Origin: a virus
Direction: 5' to 3' (one strand)
IMG/VR virus record: IMGVR_UViG_3300032240_001948
Span: 1 to 51,906 of that record
DNA: 51,906 nucleotides
Shown: in pieces, positions 361 through 51,783 of the stretch
How positions within the stretch are numbered: the stretch's first letter is position 1
Layout of the letters: every line of letters begins with the position of its first letter
Notes under the pieces: model-generated
What the model saw: only the letters and a program-made list of their open reading frames with translations
What the model was told of the DNA's origin: nothing
Databases searched by the model: none
Translations under genes and position numbers: made by a program

Positions 361-1011
361 TCAGGGTTCAAGAGCAATATAATACTTGATATTGTACCTT
401 TCATTCGTGAATTGTGACAAAAGTTTAGATGAAATCACAACATCATAATTTGTAGGAATGATTTTAAGATTTTCTACTTTAAAGTTATAAACAAATTCTT
501 GATCTGTTTCACCAACAATAATTGAATATTCATTGGATGTATCATTCTTCTTATCACGAACCACTAAACGAATAACACCAGCATCACCAATTACAGAAAG
601 ATCATTAAGTTGATAAACTGCTGCTGCTTTTTTGAGTTTATCCAACTGCGAATGTTCCAATTGAAAACAAACATCTTTAGAAGGAAGAGAAATTTCTTTT
701 TCTGGTGGTGAAACAATCACTTCTGGATCAGCAAAGAAATACTTAACCCGACGTTTTCCTTCACGAATTACAACGTGAGTATCATTTGAAAAATCAAGTT
801 CTGGTTCCTGGTGAAGAGAAAGACCATTTAGAAATTGATTAAGATCATAAATTGCAAAATCTTTTTCAAATGTTTCTTCAACTTTTGCTTCTGCAAGAAT
901 ATTTTTCATCACAGAAATTGTACGTAATTTATTACCACCCTTTACAAGAATTGATTGATTAATTGAAGCAAAGTTTTTTAAAATAGAAATAGTATTTTCA
1001 GAAAGTTTCAT
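361..1011 (-). CDS. 45: Sliding clamp, DNA polymerase accessory protein gp45
   Basis: This encodes the trimeric clamp that tethers phage DNA polymerase to DNA. In T4 it also activates late transcription by contacting gp55 and gp33 on RNA polymerase. The N-terminus MKLSENTISILKNFASIN aligns with T4 gp45 (MKLSKDT..LLKNFATIN), as does FAIYDLNQFL, and the protein ends in YIALEP, comparable to YVALEA in T4. From the ATG at 1011 it has 216 residues (T4: 228). A GTG at 1032 would add seven residues and overlap the upstream stop by 4 bp. I prefer the ATG because homology starts there, although neither start has a clear ribosome binding site. It follows the DUF3310 gene and gp46. Confidence 0.93.
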   Translation of the reverse strand: MKLSENTISILKNFASINQSILVKGGNKLRTISVMKNILAEAKVEETFEKDFAIYDLNQFLNGLSLHQEPELDFSNDTHVVIREGKRRVKYFFADPEVIVSPPEKEISLPSKDVCFQLEHSQLDKLKKAAAVYQLNDLSVIGDAGVIRLVVRDKKNDTSNEYSIIVGETDQEFVYNFKVENLKIIPTNYDVVISSKLLSQFTNERYNIKYYIALEP

Positions 1012-1028
1012 AGTTTGGGGTTTAATTT

Positions 1029-1559
1029 TCACTTATTTTCAACAAGATTGAGATGATTAATCAAAAGAATAGTATAGTGCAAAACTTTGAACAAGTCAGC
1101 ACGAGGAGTTCCTTTAGTATCATAACGATCAGTATACTTGGTAATGTTGCCAGCACAAAATCCTTCACGACGATTATGTTTAATCTTATCAAGGGTTTGT
1201 TCTGTTCCACCACCAGTTCTATCAACATAATGCTGACTATAAGTACCAGCAATATATTCTTCAAGTTGTTTCAGGATTTTATCTTCATTATATTTCCAAA
1301 ATCCATTTTTATTAGTATCTTCGTTCATTTTAATGCTATAAGAATTTAGTGAAAAAACATCAGGAGAGGCATAAGGATTTCCTGTCAAACTGTAACCATC
1401 ATCAACCCAGCAATCATTAATTCTAATATGATCTTCTCCCATTCCACCAGGAATAAAAGAAGATCCAATGTTATGCGTTTCTGAATGGATCTGAGCACCA
1501 AGTTCGGTGCCCAAAATATGATAATCTACACTATCTTTTTTTTCAGGAATTTCAGACAT
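1029..1559 (-). CDS. DUF3310-domain protein (SaV-like, putative nucleotide-metabolism protein)
   Basis: The 176-residue product has a C-terminal DUF3310 pattern (about residues 110-170): an HY pair in SQHYVD, then GFCAGNITKYTDRY and a Lys/Asp-rich segment leading to DLFKVLHYTILL. That matches the family pattern HY..G......GF..GN..KY..R...K.G..DL.KA..Y. The first 90 residues look unlike the usual short DUF3310 proteins and contain Gly-rich and Asn-rich stretches I do not recognise. DUF3310 proteins are common in phages and are sometimes annotated as nucleotide kinase, without strong biochemical support. The gene sits between gp46 and gp45, inside the replication and recombination cluster. Confidence 0.75.
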   Translation of the reverse strand: MSEIPEKKDSVDYHILGTELGAQIHSETHNIGSSFIPGGMGEDHIRINDCWVDDGYSLTGNPYASPDVFSLNSYSIKMNEDTNKNGFWKYNEDKILKQLEEYIAGTYSQHYVDRTGGGTEQTLDKIKHNRREGFCAGNITKYTDRYDTKGTPRADLFKVLHYTILLINHLNLVENK

Positions 1560-7490: not shown

Positions 7491-8032
7491 ATTAATGAAA
7501 TGATATCGTAAATAGTATACTTAAATGATACAGTAGAAACAACATAATCTACATCTGAAACTTTTGCATCAAAAGAAATTTCAGACAAAGAAACAGGAAA
7601 TAAACCTTTAAAATTTACTTGAACTATTGGTTTAAAATTACTATTATAAACCAATAAAGTTCCATCCGATTCACCAGAAAATGCAGTTTGTTTTCCTGGA
7701 TTTTGTTGATCTTGATTTAATAAATTTTGATATTCTGCTAAATTGTCTGGATAACCAAGTCCTCTTAACCAATTATGAACGGTTAAATAATTTTCCATAT
7801 TTTCATCTACAAAAAATTTCAAATCAAAATCTTCATAAGTTAGTTTATCACCAGGGACAGAAATATCTTTTAGATAAGATGGTTGAACTGCAACTCCAAG
7901 ATTAATTCCGGGAATTCCTGTCGAATTTGAAAAGAAATCAATTTTTGGATATTTTGCTAAATTAAATTTAAAAACATTGGATGTTAAGTAATTTCGATTA
8001 CTTAATTGTCCTGACCAAGGAGTCTGAGTCAT
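7487..8032 (-). CDS. Tail completion / tail-tube-fold protein, probably cyanophage gp3
   Basis: This 181-residue protein lies between gp23 and uvsY, where T4-like cyanophages usually carry a gene annotated gp3 (tail completion and sheath stabiliser). The middle of the protein has the look of the gp19 tail-tube fold: PGINLGVAVQPSYLKDISVP, then LTYEDFDLKFFVDENMENYL and a helix VHNWLRGLGYP. The C-terminus (SLSEISFDAKVSDVDYVVST) resembles the last strands of tube proteins. It could therefore be a tube terminator, or a tube-like baseplate protein of the gp48/gp54 kind. The gp3 name rests mainly on gene order. A late-type promoter motif lies 10 bp upstream. The stop codon overlaps the uvsY start. 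Confidence 0.6.
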   Translation of the reverse strand: MTQTPWSGQLSNRNYLTSNVFKFNLAKYPKIDFFSNSTGIPGINLGVAVQPSYLKDISVPGDKLTYEDFDLKFFVDENMENYLTVHNWLRGLGYPDNLAEYQNLLNQDQQNPGKQTAFSGESDGTLLVYNSNFKPIVQVNFKGLFPVSLSEISFDAKVSDVDYVVSTVSFKYTIYDIISLI

Positions 8033-8041
8033 TTTTATTTC

Positions 8042-8049
8042 TATTTATT
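8042..8049 (-). promoter_or_regulatory. Late promoter motif AATAAATA upstream of gp3-like gene
   Basis: The minus strand reads AATAAATA, one base from the T4 late consensus TATAAATA, ten bases before the ATG at 8032. It lies directly after the gp23 terminator, where a new promoter would be needed to continue into the gp3-like gene, uvsY and uvsW. The leader would be very short. Confidence 0.45.
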
Positions 8050-8054
8050 TCCAT

Positions 8055-8080
8055 AAAAAAAGGACCCCATAAAGGGGTCC
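8055..8080 (-). terminator. Intrinsic terminator after major capsid gene
   Basis: On the minus strand, 20 bases after the gp23 stop, a perfect 7-bp stem GGACCCC / GGGGTCC encloses the loop TTTAT and is followed by seven T residues. This is the best intrinsic terminator in the window and ends the highly expressed head-gene transcript. Confidence 0.92.
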
Positions 8081-8099
8081 CAGAAAAAGTGAGAAAGAC

Positions 8100-9512
8100 T
8101 CACATTAAGTTGTCAACACGTACTCTTCTGTAATAACGGTTTGAGTTTACGTGAAGTCTACCGAGACCTTGGTTGGTAACATCTCCTTCAGCAAATGGGT
8201 TAGCAACAATGCCATAACGAGTTTTGAACCCAATTTTTGGTTGGAAGCTGTTCTCACCAACGGCACGAACCATTTGGAGAGGAACATAAGGACAGTAGAA
8301 GAGACCAGCATCATAAGGTGAAGAACCTTTATAACCAACAACGTAGTACTGGTTAGCAGATACGTTTGCAGCATAAGGATCGATATAAACACGATACTTA
8401 CCTTGAAGAACACCAGCAAAGGTATTGCCAGTATCATCAACGTTGAGGTTAGCATTGAGTGCTGGGGTGTAATCAAGAACACCTGCCATGGTGAGTGCCG
8501 AAGCAACGTCTGCCGAGCAGAGGATCATGTTACCCTTCCCTCTACGAGTTCTTTGTGCGATTGCGTTCGCATCACGCTCGATTTGGAAAAGAAGACCTTT
8601 GAATTTCTCAACTGACCAACGACCGTTGGAGTCAACATCAAGGTCAAAGATACCAGCAGTTGCGGTATTAGCAGCAGCACCTTGCTCAGCAACCTTATAG
8701 ATGGTTCTGATAACTTCTCTGTTGATTTCTGCGAGGATTTCAGTTGAGAGAATGTTAGCAAGTTCTGCTTCTGCATTCAGACCATGAATTGCTTTGAGGT
8801 CTTGTGCGAGTTCTAACGAATACTCAGCTTTGAGTGCTCTTGATTTTGCAGTAACAGTGACTTTCTCGATTGAGAATGCCATTTGTTGGAATGCGTTTGC
8901 ACCCGAACCATCAAGGTTTTCTGCATCCGCAGTGTTCAAACCTGAACCAACGTTATAAGACGTTGAAACTGCAGTACCAACTGGGTTAAGAAGACCTGGG
9001 TTTGTACCTGCCTGTGAAGGTGTAGTACCGAAACCAACGTTGGAATCTGATGCTTGTGCAGCATAACCAGGGGTAACAGTATTGTTGTAACCAGCATTTT
9101 CTCCAGAGAATGCAGTATCTGCTTCGTTGAAGAGTGCTTCAGTACCTGACTGGTTAGTGTAACGTGAACGCATTGCGAAGATAAGTCCAGTAGGACCGTT
9201 CATTGGTTGAACACCTGCGAGGTCATATGCGACCAAGTTAGGCATTGAACGTCTGATCAATGAGATCAGAACTGGATCGAAACCTGCAACTGGACCAGAT
9301 TTTGTTGAATCTCCACCATAACCACCAGTACCAGCAACGTTGGTTGGTGCTTCGGAAAGGAATGAACTTTCTTCTCTTAAGAATTTTTCTTGGTTTTCTA
9401 GCAGGACTGCGGTTACCATTCTGCGATGCGAGTCTTTGATTGGATCAAGACCATCATAGTTAAGGAGTGGTGCCCACTTCTCCTGCAGATGTTCTGCATT
9501 GAACATTTGCAT
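8100..9512 (-). CDS. 23: Major capsid protein gp23
   Basis: This is the main shell protein of the head, 470 residues (T4: 521), and is also the usual marker gene for T4-like phages. The N-terminal EKWAPLLNYDGLDPIKDSHR matches the gp23 delta region. The body carries VAYDLAGVQPMNGPTGLIFAM and SRALKAEYSLELAQDLKAIH, both conserved in gp23. A likely gp21 cleavage site of the L-x-E type is LSE at 52-54, followed by APTN, which would remove the N-terminal 54 residues on maturation. A ribosome binding site AGAGG lies 8 bases before the ATG at 9512. Base composition is less AT-rich than in its neighbours, as expected for a highly expressed gene. A strong terminator follows. Confidence 0.98.
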   Translation of the reverse strand: MQMFNAEHLQEKWAPLLNYDGLDPIKDSHRRMVTAVLLENQEKFLREESSFLSEAPTNVAGTGGYGGDSTKSGPVAGFDPVLISLIRRSMPNLVAYDLAGVQPMNGPTGLIFAMRSRYTNQSGTEALFNEADTAFSGENAGYNNTVTPGYAAQASDSNVGFGTTPSQAGTNPGLLNPVGTAVSTSYNVGSGLNTADAENLDGSGANAFQQMAFSIEKVTVTAKSRALKAEYSLELAQDLKAIHGLNAEAELANILSTEILAEINREVIRTIYKVAEQGAAANTATAGIFDLDVDSNGRWSVEKFKGLLFQIERDANAIAQRTRRGKGNMILCSADVASALTMAGVLDYTPALNANLNVDDTGNTFAGVLQGKYRVYIDPYAANVSANQYYVVGYKGSSPYDAGLFYCPYVPLQMVRAVGENSFQPKIGFKTRYGIVANPFAEGDVTNQGLGRLHVNSNRYYRRVRVDNLM

Positions 9513-16893: not shown

Positions 16894-18585
16894 CTATCTA
16901 TATTCCCACATATATGAACGATCTCCATATTCATCAACATTCCAACCATTTCCATCTCCAACAATTTGACTTCCATTTATCACATTCCAAGTATCTCCAT
17001 CAACATCAACAAAAGAATTTTCATTATTCAATCCATCGGAAATAAAACCAAATGGAGACATATCTTGTTCTATTTGCTCTTTTTGTTCTTCATAAATTCT
17101 TTTACGGACATCATTTTCCGTCATTTCTTTGAAATAATCTTGAGCAATCAACCAAGCAAAAATAACTAAACACATTACCAAATCATCATTAGATCCTTCT
17201 TCTGCTTCAAATGATTGATTTTTTTGGATGAAAGTAGTCAATTCACTAATAATATCATAATCACTGAATATAAGTTTGCTATCTTCTATAATTGTCTTTA
17301 AGTTGGAGCAACCAACTCTTTTTACTGTTTTAGACATTTTTACGCCTAATTGGGTTTTCTTCCCCGAAAATCCTTGTCCTACAAGTTGTCCTGCTCTTCC
17401 TCTCATAGCACACATCAAAATATTATCATATTCTAAATCAAAATGAAGAATACTTGTAACTTGCTCACCAATATCATTAACTTCTGCTAGAACAAATGCT
17501 TTATTATATGCTTTTGCTACATCAAGAATGATGTTAGGAAATAGCATGGGTTTTATTTCATTATTTCTATATTTTGCAACTATTTTATATGGAAATGTAG
17601 TTATATCAAAAACTACAAAAGCAGAGTAATCATTGTTCAATCCTCTTGATACATCAACTGTCATTATGTAAGTATTATCTTCTTGTGGTTCTTCGTAAAT
17701 ATCTAACCCCGCACTTCTTTCTATTGGCTCATCGTAAACTAATGATTTTAATTTTGCAGCATTAATTAATGTTCCAACCGAACCAAGAAATTCACATTCA
17801 AATTCAACTGCAAATTGTTGTTCACTTGTATTTGCTATTGTTTGTCTTTTCCACTCAACATCTCTTCCTGGAACATCACTCCAGTGAACCTCTGTTGCAA
17901 TATATTCATTTTTCTTTCTTTCTGCATCGTGCCAAATTTTATAAAAATGATTCATCCCGTGAGGGGTAGAAACAATAATCATTTTAGTAGATTGTCCTGA
18001 TGATATAACAGGATAAACAGAACTAAAAAATTCATCAGCAACATGATTGGGAACAAACGCAAATTCGTCCAAAAACACAATGTTGTAAGAACCACCACGG
18101 ACAGCAGAAGCTGAAGTGGAAGCTGCAAGTATTTTTGATCCATTTTCTAATTCTAATGAACCTTTATTCCAAATTAAGACACCTTGCTGCATCCATTTTG
18201 GAAGATTCTCATATGCTAATTGGAGTCTTCCGAGAAGATCTCTAGCAGTTGAAGCTTTATTAGCAAGAATCGCAATATTGACATTATCATTAAATATTGC
18301 ATAATGTAGCAAGTAAGAAACGACAGTGGTAGATTTGCCAGACTGTCTTGGCATTTTGCAGACGTTAAATCTGTTATCATGGAAATTCTTGATTAGTTTT
18401 TCTTGAAACTTGTACATATTAAACGGCACAAGACCATGATCAAGAGAAACAATTTTTATATAATTTCTTGCAAAATATACAGGATCATTTTTGCATTTTA
18501 TATATTGCTCAATATTGTCTTTAGTAAACTCTATTGGTGTATTTGCTTTTTTTAATAAAGGATTGCCTAAATATTGGTCACTCAT
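16894..18585 (-). CDS. 17: Terminase large subunit gp17
   Basis: This is the DNA packaging motor and headful nuclease, 563 residues (T4: 610). Walker A is PRQSGKSTT (79-87) and Walker B is NIVFLDEF (168-175), with D173 and E174. The coupling motif is STPHG near 206. In the RNase-H-like nuclease domain the acidic residues are D311 in MTVDVSRG, E368 in LAEVND and D467 or D468 in SNDDLV. These correspond in order to D401, E458 and D542 of T4. The gene starts 3 bp after a 62-aa ORF. It is separated from the small subunit by two non-terminase genes. Confidence 0.98.
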   Translation of the reverse strand: MSDQYLGNPLLKKANTPIEFTKDNIEQYIKCKNDPVYFARNYIKIVSLDHGLVPFNMYKFQEKLIKNFHDNRFNVCKMPRQSGKSTTVVSYLLHYAIFNDNVNIAILANKASTARDLLGRLQLAYENLPKWMQQGVLIWNKGSLELENGSKILAASTSASAVRGGSYNIVFLDEFAFVPNHVADEFFSSVYPVISSGQSTKMIIVSTPHGMNHFYKIWHDAERKKNEYIATEVHWSDVPGRDVEWKRQTIANTSEQQFAVEFECEFLGSVGTLINAAKLKSLVYDEPIERSAGLDIYEEPQEDNTYIMTVDVSRGLNNDYSAFVVFDITTFPYKIVAKYRNNEIKPMLFPNIILDVAKAYNKAFVLAEVNDIGEQVTSILHFDLEYDNILMCAMRGRAGQLVGQGFSGKKTQLGVKMSKTVKRVGCSNLKTIIEDSKLIFSDYDIISELTTFIQKNQSFEAEEGSNDDLVMCLVIFAWLIAQDYFKEMTENDVRKRIYEEQKEQIEQDMSPFGFISDGLNNENSFVDVDGDTWNVINGSQIVGDGNGWNVDEYGDRSYMWEYR

Positions 18586-49658: not shown

Positions 49659-50411
49659 TCAGATGATTCTAGTCTTTTCATGACCAACACGAATCTTTGG
49701 ATCACACCAAATCTCAAATCCTGCTTCTTTTGCATCAAGACAGAATGAAACATCCTCTCCACACATATCCTGTACTTCACCAGACTCAAAGACTTGCATC
49801 TTTGGTGCAAACCAAGGGTATTCAAGATTCTCAAAGACTCCTTTCTTAATCAGTACCCAACCAAAACCAGTATAATCAACTGTAAACATCTTACGACGTT
49901 TGCTCATTGTCTCTAAGGTTTCATGATTCATCACTCCACCATTGCCTCTGAAATCTTCTTCTTCCAACCAATGTGCAACTGAAGTAGTCATTCCATCTTC
50001 TGTGCAATACCACCCTGCTGCAATCTCTTTATCCATACCTACAAGACGATAAAACTTCTCAGTATCAAATACAATATCACTATCAATCCATAACTGATAA
50101 TCATAATGAAGTTTTCCATCCCAAGGTACTTGCTTTGGACCACGTAATACATTTGCTCCAAGTACTTTGCAACGTGCAAAGTTTACCATGGAAGAATAAT
50201 CCTGTGAAATTTGAATACTTGCACCATTTTGGACAAGATCAAAACATAACTGAACAAAGTTCTTCAAGAAGATATATGATACTCCTCGACCTGGAAGACA
50301 AAATACAATCGACTTACCTCGAATTGCTTCCTTTGCTGCTTCCAAATTAAAGTCATCTTCACTAGATGTACTCTTTGGTGCTGCTGCTTTTACTGTAAAA
50401 CCTTTTGCCAT
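49659..50411 (-). CDS. Glycosyltransferase-like protein (GT-A type)
   Basis: The product has 250 residues with a GT-A type arrangement. A first strand SIVFCLPGRGVSYIFLKNF is followed by a nucleotide-binding half, and a D-x-D motif D110-S111-D112 in LWIDSDIVF binds the metal and sugar nucleotide. Acceptor-side motifs include TGFGWVLIKKGVFENLEYPWF-like residues around 186-206, GEDVSFC near 220 (candidate base region) and VGHEK near the end, where a metal-binding His is common. The first 30 residues are a low-complexity Ala/Ser/Lys extension. The donor and acceptor are unknown. It could modify phage DNA, capsid or host surface. It resembles conserved cyanophage proteins annotated as glycosyltransferases. 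Confidence 0.75.
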   Translation of the reverse strand: MAKGFTVKAAAPKSTSSEDDFNLEAAKEAIRGKSIVFCLPGRGVSYIFLKNFVQLCFDLVQNGASIQISQDYSSMVNFARCKVLGANVLRGPKQVPWDGKLHYDYQLWIDSDIVFDTEKFYRLVGMDKEIAAGWYCTEDGMTTSVAHWLEEEDFRGNGGVMNHETLETMSKRRKMFTVDYTGFGWVLIKKGVFENLEYPWFAPKMQVFESGEVQDMCGEDVSFCLDAKEAGFEIWCDPKIRVGHEKTRII

Positions 50412-50813: not shown

Positions 50814-50981
50814 AAAATTTTTCCCGAAATTTTTTTTATTTGACGTGTAATTGTTCTCTCGTTTTCAAAGTTTTGTAGGTTACAGGGACCCTTAAAATTA
50901 GCTTTGAGGGGGGCATCGGTTTAGTATAAGAATTAAACAATAATCGTATATAACTGTCATTTTAACTGTTTTATAAGAATA

Positions 50982-51179
50982 ACGAACTATACCCAGGGTA
51001 TGAGATAACGAAGGGGCACGATATAAGTGCTTATACAACACTGTCTGATTGTAATACGAAACTATACCCAGGGTCTGCTATCACGAACAGAGGGTATAAG
51101 TTACTGTCAAGAACTGCCCATAACGAATAGTATACCACAGAGTGATTAGAATAGCAAACTATACCCAGGGTATGACGAA
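50982..51179. repeat. Three-copy palindromic repeat with flanking ACGAA boxes
   Basis: The 15-base unit AACTATACCCAGGGT occurs at 50985-50999, 51060-51074 and 51157-51171. In the first and third copy its core is part of the palindrome ATACCC-A-GGGTAT. The first two copies are bracketed by ACGAA (50982 and 51008; 51056 and 51083), with eight bases between the unit and the right-hand box. Further ACGAA boxes lie at 51123 and 51175. GGGTATA (51093) and TATACC (51130) appear as half-sites between. The layout suggests binding sites for a dimeric protein or replication iterons; function unknown. Confidence 0.75.
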
Positions 51180-51183
51180 TTGC

Positions 51184-51546
51184 TTATGTCTTTTCATACT
51201 TTATACAACATCTTGGTTTGATTTGTTCTTGTAACTGTGCCTCACAATCAATATCAGCAAACACTGAGAATACAAAGTTCTCTATACCAAACTCTGCCAT
51301 ATGATAGTGTATACTTTGCACCACGAACTTTTCGTTTGATTTGCCAATAGAACGAACACACGATTTATGAACTTTCCATCTATGTTCGGGGTTTATACTT
51401 TTCCCTACATAAACAATTTCATTAGTAACGATGTTTGTTATAGTATAAGTATAAACTGTTCTCAACAGTTTCTCCACAGTTTTCCCCCAGTTTCTCCACA
51501 AGTATATAAAGACTTTACAGTCTATTATAACACGAAGCACGAGCAT
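51184..51546 (-). CDS. GIY-YIG nuclease-domain protein, probable
   Basis: The product has up to 120 residues. The domain reads VYTYTITNIVTNEIVYVGKS, then NPEHRWKVH and FGIENFVFSVFADIDCEAQL. This fits the GIY-YIG order: a degenerate first motif (TYTI for GIYxI), YVG for YIG, the Arg after NPE, and a Glu in EAQLQEQ as the candidate metal ligand. No DNA-binding module follows, and the end (CCIKYEKT) is shorter than usual. The true start is uncertain: the ATG at 51546 adds an odd leader, while the GTG at 51477 after GGGGG gives 97 residues. It may be a small homing-type or stand-alone nuclease. It lies in an isolated position between two non-coding regions. Confidence 0.6.
   Translation of the reverse strand: MLVLRVIIDCKVFIYLWRNWGKTVEKLLRTVYTYTITNIVTNEIVYVGKSINPEHRWKVHKSCVRSIGKSNEKFVVQSIHYHMAEFGIENFVFSVFADIDCEAQLQEQIKPRCCIKYEKT
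51466..51500 (-). repeat. 13-bp direct repeat at the start of the GIY-YIG ORF
   Basis: TGTGGAGAAACTG (minus strand) occurs twice, at 51488-51500 and 51466-51478, 22 bases apart. The offset is not a multiple of three, so the copies are read in different frames. The second copy contains the alternative GTG start. Confidence 0.6.
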
Positions 51547-51586
51547 AAGTCAATAATGTGCCAGTTCTTATAGTGTCTACGAGGTC

Positions 51587-51615
51587 TTGACTTTTTTGAG
51601 GTCTTGTGTTATAAT
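51587..51615 (+). promoter_or_regulatory. Strong host sigma-70-type promoter on the plus strand
   Basis: TTGACT (51587-51592), a spacer of exactly 17 bp, and a perfect TATAAT (51610-51615) preceded by TG in the extended -10 position. Transcription would start near 51622 and run rightward, against all genes in the window. Confidence 0.75.
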
Positions 51616-51621
51616 GCGGGC

Positions 51622-51725
51622 TTAGACGACTATAAAGACGTACATTTATTGAAGCATTAACACATAAGAACAAGCATTATAGTATAATAACATACATTCA
51701 CATAACATTAACATTATGTTTTTTA
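51622..51725 (+). ncRNA. Hypothetical short plus-strand RNA
   Basis: The region between the plus-strand promoter start (about 51622) and a hairpin with a T run would give an RNA of about 100 bases. The hairpin is ACATAA / TTATGT (51700-51705 and 51714-51719), followed by six T. The stem is all A-T except one pair each side, so termination is doubtful. No ORF longer than 17 codons is present. This is a prediction from signals only. Confidence 0.25.
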
Positions 51726-51783
51726 ATACATTTAATTTAATTATAAAATATAACGTAATTATGTTTTAATTGATAATTTAGAC

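Follow-up and report, generated by a model that had tools for sequence, protein, structure and literature searches.

The window analysed here is a 51,906-nt stretch of viral DNA, positions 1 to 51,906 of IMG/VR record IMGVR_UViG_3300032240_001948, which is T4-like cyanomyophage DNA with its genes almost all on the - strand. Upstream of a conserved glycosyltransferase (GT)-gp25-gp6 block lies a 1-kb gap that holds the locus described in this report. From left to right, the locus consists of an array of ATACCC/ACGAA repeats, clusters of DnaA-box-like repeats, a rightward promoter and an AT-rich block, and it reaches to about position 51780 (Table 1). It is read, at about an even chance, as a composite locus of T4-like cyanophages that is strand-polar and combines a replication origin with early promoters, the array forming its left part. 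A first-pass annotation had marked operator-like palindromes at 50982-51179 and offered an origin, a transcription switch, or a packaging or recombination site as explanations. The array is real, but that interval covers only the left part of the locus, and the repeat unit is longer, at about 48 nt.

Table 1. Features of the locus, by position in the window (HMM, hidden Markov model; ORF, open reading frame)
Feature	Position	Strand	Evidence and remarks
Array unit 1	50963-51012	+	Palindrome 50989-51001; ACGAA at 50982, 51008; unit HMM E 3.8e-12
Array unit 2	51037-51087	+	ACGAA at 51056, 51083; right half-site imperfect, GGGTCT; unit HMM E 2.6e-11
Array unit 3	51134-51179	+	Palindrome 51161-51173; ACGAA at 51175; unit HMM E 3.2e-11
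Leftward promoter-like site in array unit 3	51129-51157	-	TTGCTA-17-TATACT, TG before -10, 9/12; consensus match only
GIY-YIG homing-endonuclease-like ORF	51184-51546	-	PF01541, 8.1e-07 (domain residues 32-93); PHROG homing endonuclease
Four tandem 11-bp DnaA-box-like repeats	51459-51500	+	TTCTCAACA, TTCTCCACA, TTTCCCCCA, TTCTCCACA
Second leftward promoter-like site	51524-51553	-	TTGACT-18-TATAAT, 11/12
Rightward extended -10 sigma-70 promoter	51587-51615	+	TTGACT-17-TATAAT, TG before -10, 11/12; opposes all genes
AT-rich block, candidate DNA unwinding element	51700-51779		11% GC; sequence conserved (alignment rows other than L025, L026 and possibly L013)

The Rightward Promoter and the AT-Rich Block

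The loci collected for comparison are a sample of the available relatives. An HMM of the promoter region was trained on 48 environmental loci, with the window and the isolates held out. It finds the element in the window at 51558-51678 (E 2.8e-26) and, at E<1e-4, in 12 of 15 isolates, namely S-SM2, S-SSM7, S-BM3, Bellamy, S-CAM9, S-8S55, S-SCSM1, S-SCSM2R, Sf-FS3, DSL-LC02, DSL-LC03 and ACG-2014f. S-BM3, Bellamy, DSL-LC03 and S-SCSM2R had been fetched because BLAST already pointed to the locus; 8 of the other 11 isolates are positive. The element is unique in the 171-kb contig G001 (1.9e-28, next match 0.15) and in the S-SM2 genome (58,097-58,168; 3e-11, next match 0.93). Overall it is found in 94 of 154 loci, and 96 of its 97 hits lie on the + strand. 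Selection on the glycosyltransferase as the sole criterion, with 2.5 kb or more of upstream sequence available, gave a sample of 44 loci, and 24 of these GT-selected loci carry the promoter.

In GC content, the AT-rich block is on a par with the third-lowest 80-bp stretch in the entire window. Mean GC across 58 aligned loci drops from ~0.39 to a level of ~0.25 at some 125-150 bp beyond the -35. Most of these loci have their 60-bp window of lowest GC, within 1.1 kb, at 50-250 bp downstream of the promoter. Exceptions with an equal or lower GC window upstream include L138, L198, L212, L023, L101 and L032.

The predicted downstream transcript has no detectable structure (window z 0.48; no predicted pair in an alignment of 48). 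A terminator was not found in the window, and no downstream + strand gene is apparent in the 18 loci listed. A primer would therefore suit the transcript better than a structured RNA, given that neither a conserved fold nor a gene on its strand is apparent, though it may also be an antisense RNA.

DnaA-Box-Like Repeats

The cyanobacterial DnaA box is TTTTCCACA (PMC4674748). Clusters of this box lie to the right of the array in many relatives, and the 2-kb segments of 88 non-redundant loci contain 281 boxes where 5 would be expected. Their spacings concentrate at 11-12, 20-22, 31-33, 42-44 and 54-55 bp, which are multiples of the helix turn; some of the 88 loci were picked by a box pattern with a spacing of 18-24, so that only this class is favoured by the selection. 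In G001, 8 of the 11 exact boxes of the 171 kb fall inside 203 bp, in the longest intergenic gap, and in S-SM2 two of the three exact boxes of the genome stand beside the rightward promoter element. The closest relative of the window, L016, has five intact copies of TTCTCCACA with an 11-bp period.

At least two boxes occur in only 8 of the 44 GT-selected relatives, and all 8 also have the promoter. The boxes are thus not essential, and the promoter and AT-rich block are taken as the core of the locus, to which boxes and array are lineage-specific additions.

The boxes could instead act as a sink, with the phage titrating host DnaA and so halting host initiation. Escherichia coli datA is a DnaA-titrating site of this kind. 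The many perfect, helically phased boxes of some relatives, up to 12 in L026, would fit a sink. It is nonetheless improbable, given how few GT-selected relatives carry two or more boxes and the decay of those in the window, and it leaves the promoter and the AT-rich block unexplained.

The ATACCC/ACGAA Array

The array spans 50963-51179 and comprises three units of about 48 nt in the same orientation, with the unit sequence ACTGTTTGATTnnAATnnnnAACTATACCCAGGGTAT and start spacings of 75 and 97. The 15-mer AACTATACCCAGGGT occurs exactly three times on the + strand (50985-50999, 51060-51074 and 51157-51171); the centre of copies 1 and 3 is ATACCC-A-GGGTAT, and copy 2 ends in GGGTCT. ACGAA is present six times, always on the + strand, five copies being listed in Table 1 and the other lying at 51123, and a GGGT-N8-ACGAA spacing recurs in copies 1 and 2. 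The elements described by the first-pass annotation, three 15-mers, two perfect palindromes, six ACGAA boxes and an eight-base spacing used twice, are therefore all present as placed. The array is not a product of chance, since none of 500 dinucleotide shuffles of the gap reproduced the triplicate 15-mer and none of 5000 reached six ACGAA per 198 bp (0.33 expected). In the gap as a whole, ACGAA occurs nine times on the + strand and once on the - strand, where about one on each is expected. A loose version of the ATACCC palindrome, with three mismatches allowed, shows no over-representation in the window (13 against 8.2).

Two short ORFs (47 and 40 aa) overlie the array. They are taken as spurious because the unit spacing among relatives (71-75, 97, 147 and 166 bp) does not preserve a reading frame.

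The first pass had proposed a search for the same array in the same gap of related phages. Exact matches to the 15-mer were found in 27 viral contig stretches, 18 of which align with the window and have the array in the same gap in 1 to 5 copies; the other 9 have no similarity to the window and were dropped as unrelated. With an HMM of the unit, 21 loci, the window included, show the array at E<1e-4, again in the same gap. Among all hits at E<=0.5, 88 are + strand and 2 are - strand, and 47 non-redundant units (E<0.01) give the consensus ACTGTtTGATtnnAATnnnnAACTATACCCAGGGTAT. Related arrays, such as those in L034, L037 and L046, lack the ATACCC core and have other G/C-rich centres with the same ACGAA bias. 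In G001 a strong ACGAA strand bias occurs in one 3-kb bin only, which is this locus. Separately, the same gap in L101 contains a repeat unlike the ATACCC array: 72 bp long and with paired ACGAA boxes, it is present four times at 1354-1600 upstream of the GT gene.

A hairpin role for the palindromes, in single strands or in RNA, is very unlikely. Precedents for such hairpins exist in N4-type promoters and in primosome sites, and a 5-bp stem with a 3-nt loop is possible in copies 1 and 3. The DNA fold scores (z -0.15, 0.97 and -1.77) speak against hairpins, and the stem is broken in copy 2 and in several relatives. The large ORFs of the window match, by position, gp7-like and other structural proteins of isolates, and not an N4 virion RNA polymerase. 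Hairpin promoters for the N4 virion RNA polymerase were rejected because no stable DNA hairpin is kept across all copies.

Two further candidate roles were also rejected. T4 primase start sites need a specific base context, and the base preceding ACGAA is A in 99 of 255 cases and C in 80 of 255, so that the required context is not kept. The array units do not qualify as rightward promoters, as the second position of their -10-like box is variable and the promoter scan found none on the + strand within the array.

Of the functions first suggested, packaging or site-specific recombination is barely credible. The tandem direct repeats within a gap would be in keeping with such a site, but the large terminase gene (16894-18585) is more than 30 kb away, and the 20 window proteins examined include neither an integrase nor a resolvase.

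Leftward Promoters

A strong - strand promoter lies within 700 bp to the left of the rightward promoter in 46 of 69 non-redundant loci, against 3.8 expected from single-base shuffles. Both leftward sites of the window have counterparts. The last array unit holds a leftward site at the same position in L016, L019, L025, L017, L020 and L008, and sites placed like the second one (at -44) are found in L013, L023, L026 and L124. In the window and in the six loci from L016 to L008, the palindrome stands directly upstream of the -35 of the site in the last unit. The array thus adjoins predicted leftward transcription, given that its last unit carries a leftward promoter site. The remaining units, scored as leftward promoters, average 6.9 of 12 against 5.6 at random positions. 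The suggestion of a transcription switch for small early genes is partly supported by the last unit and the divergent promoters, the other units being close to random.

These promoters also favour the main alternative, a tentative one, in which the region would control divergent early promoters and would not act as an origin. The leftward promoters would drive the GT operon and the preceding small genes, and the rightward promoter would give a short antisense or regulatory RNA. The array and boxes would serve as operators, with DnaA as a transcription factor. In addition to the 46 loci and the site in the last array unit, a precedent is offered by the antisense RNA CfrI, known from another locus in S-PM2 (PMC2984593). 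CfrI resembles the present case in its antisense-oriented transcription, in its cyanomyophage setting and in adjoining a homing endonuclease; it differs in lying at the psbA locus and in being experimentally shown, where transcription at the present locus is predicted. Against a control region of this kind are the unstructured transcript, with neither a terminator in the window nor a + strand gene in the 18 loci, and the AT-rich block, which would need a separate explanation. The origin and early-promoter locus is favoured because the elements have the architecture of a T4 origin, with a host-type promoter and an unstructured transcript.

A Candidate Replication Origin

The origin proposed by the first pass is thus the best fit to the wider locus of promoter, AT-rich block and DnaA-box clusters, and initiation there is a prediction from sequence. 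In the proposed mechanism, host RNA polymerase would fire the rightward promoter, and the short transcript, with no gene on its strand, would form an R-loop ~50-250 bp downstream, where the AT-rich block lies. The T4-type replisome would then extend the transcript as a leading-strand primer, as at T4 oriF and oriG. Host DnaA, or a phage initiator, may assemble on the boxes and open or regulate the site, the boxes being of the cyanobacterial consensus or a one-base variant and predicted to lie on one helix face near the divergent promoters. The ATACCC/ACGAA units would be the sites of a putative regulator that controls the leftward promoters.

Reduced to the minimum, T4 oriF and oriG are each a promoter with an A+T-rich unwinding element downstream, and the R-loop of the transcript primes the leading strand (PMC3016281). 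The cyanophage locus likewise has a promoter followed by an A+T-rich element, and the phage encodes a T4-type replisome and a UvsW-like helicase; the T4-type replication set of gp45, gp46/47, UvsW-like helicase and UvsY is present in the window. Unlike oriF and oriG, the locus has a sigma-70 extended -10 promoter rather than a MotA middle promoter, is not beside uvsY, is flanked by DnaA-box clusters and ATACCC/ACGAA arrays, and has an R-loop that is predicted.

The locus shares with cyanobacterial oriC the close tandem arrangement of TTTTCCACA (9-mers 2 nt apart in L016, as in Cyanothece) and nearby AT-rich DNA. In contrast to oriC, there is no adjacent dnaN, the clamp gene gp45 being at the opposite end of the window (361-1032); boxes are absent or degenerate in the window and in many relatives; and the best-conserved part is a strong outward promoter. 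In some lineages of T4-like cyanophages, the locus might possibly be an oriC-like origin at which host DnaA is recruited to an R-loop origin of the phage and which is flanked by a phage-specific iteron array, an extension that is put forward with some doubt.

Several observations weigh against an origin at this locus. GC skew does not mark it: the detrended maxima in G001, Syn9 and S-SM2 lie ~8-18 kb away, and the minima are much farther. The skew is judged uninformative, since nearly all genes are on one strand. The uvsY gene is 44 kb from the locus in the window. The T4 oriF promoter depends on MotA, which cyanomyoviruses lack (PMC2984593). The window gap has no exact TTTTCCACA box, its boxes being of the TTCTCCACA variant (two copies) with two of the four decayed, and boxes are absent from most GT-selected relatives. 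The range of phages with the array is narrower than that of the rightward promoter, and the stretches fetched from P-SSM2, S-SRM01 and S-T4 have no match to the promoter HMM.

A single theta origin has been predicted for Syn9 (as cited in PMC2984593), and the present locus is similar in being one predicted origin in a T4-like cyanophage. The top match to the promoter element in Syn9 (L366), at 52680-52633, is not significant (E 0.15), and stands beside two of its four exact boxes (52565 and 52589). The region 52565-52680, about 6 kb upstream of gp25, is a candidate for the predicted single origin. A literature search, largely outside of subscription papers, found no DnaA-box clusters or mapped origin reported for T4-like cyanophages, and a hybrid of T4-type and chromosomal initiation is not described for T4-like phages in the literature searched.

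The conserved element is single in both fully scanned genomes and has landmarks in the isolates S-SM2, DSL-LC03, S-BM3 and Bellamy, which makes the origin question testable. T4-like cyanophages are abundant ocean viruses, and host DnaA boxes in a T4-like phage would, if the proposal is correct, link phage replication with the initiator and the cell cycle of the host.

Gene Neighbourhood and Additional Observations

Homologues encoded in the window include the clamp gp45, gp46/47, the sigma factor gp55, a UvsW-like helicase, UvsY, gp25, gp6 and speD, together with major head, portal and terminase proteins. The left neighbour of the gap is the gene for the glycosyltransferase-like protein (49659-50411), which is T4-GC 102 in S-SSM7. 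This protein has relatives in 105 GenBank phage records, the top one in S-SSM7 (86%), and the GenBank relatives fetched are mostly classed in Kyanoviridae.

The GIY-YIG ORF sits between the array and the box repeats, and its first ~30 residues overlap the latter. The ORF list of L025 has no equivalent between array and boxes, and the ORF is probably an insertion outside the function of the locus.

BLAST of the window gap against GenBank phages gave no match. Rfam gave none at gathering score in the window, and in the gap only sub-threshold matches, and a tRNA search found none. A motif scan found no Pho or T4 late promoter motif, and one NtcA-like match at 51682, outside the array.

A second conserved stretch lies to the left of the array, at 50845-50920 (TTGTTCTC...TTTTGTAGGTTA...GGGGGG). 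The TTTTGTAGGTTA core, with at most two mismatches, is similarly placed in many relatives, and the 50845-50920 stretch is seen in the P-SSM2 gap as well. In S-SM2 (L370), the small ORFs SSM2_085-087 are annotated across the conserved non-coding locus (7841-8355) and may not be genes.

Viral contigs were also scanned for tandem boxes only, which gave 106 stretches, 97 of them new. Among the new ones, 54 have the promoter element within 1 kb and 49 encode cyanophage proteins of this neighbourhood; 60 have one or the other and 37 neither. These 37 contigs, among L132-L228, carry tandem GTTTTCCACAGG pairs without the tested cyanophage proteins or the promoter element, and host DnaA boxes may be in use in other phages. 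Lastly, the 5.2-kb microvirus MZ089777.1 (H61, Microvirus mar31) has eight places with a match to the region of tandem DnaA boxes in a cyanophage contig.
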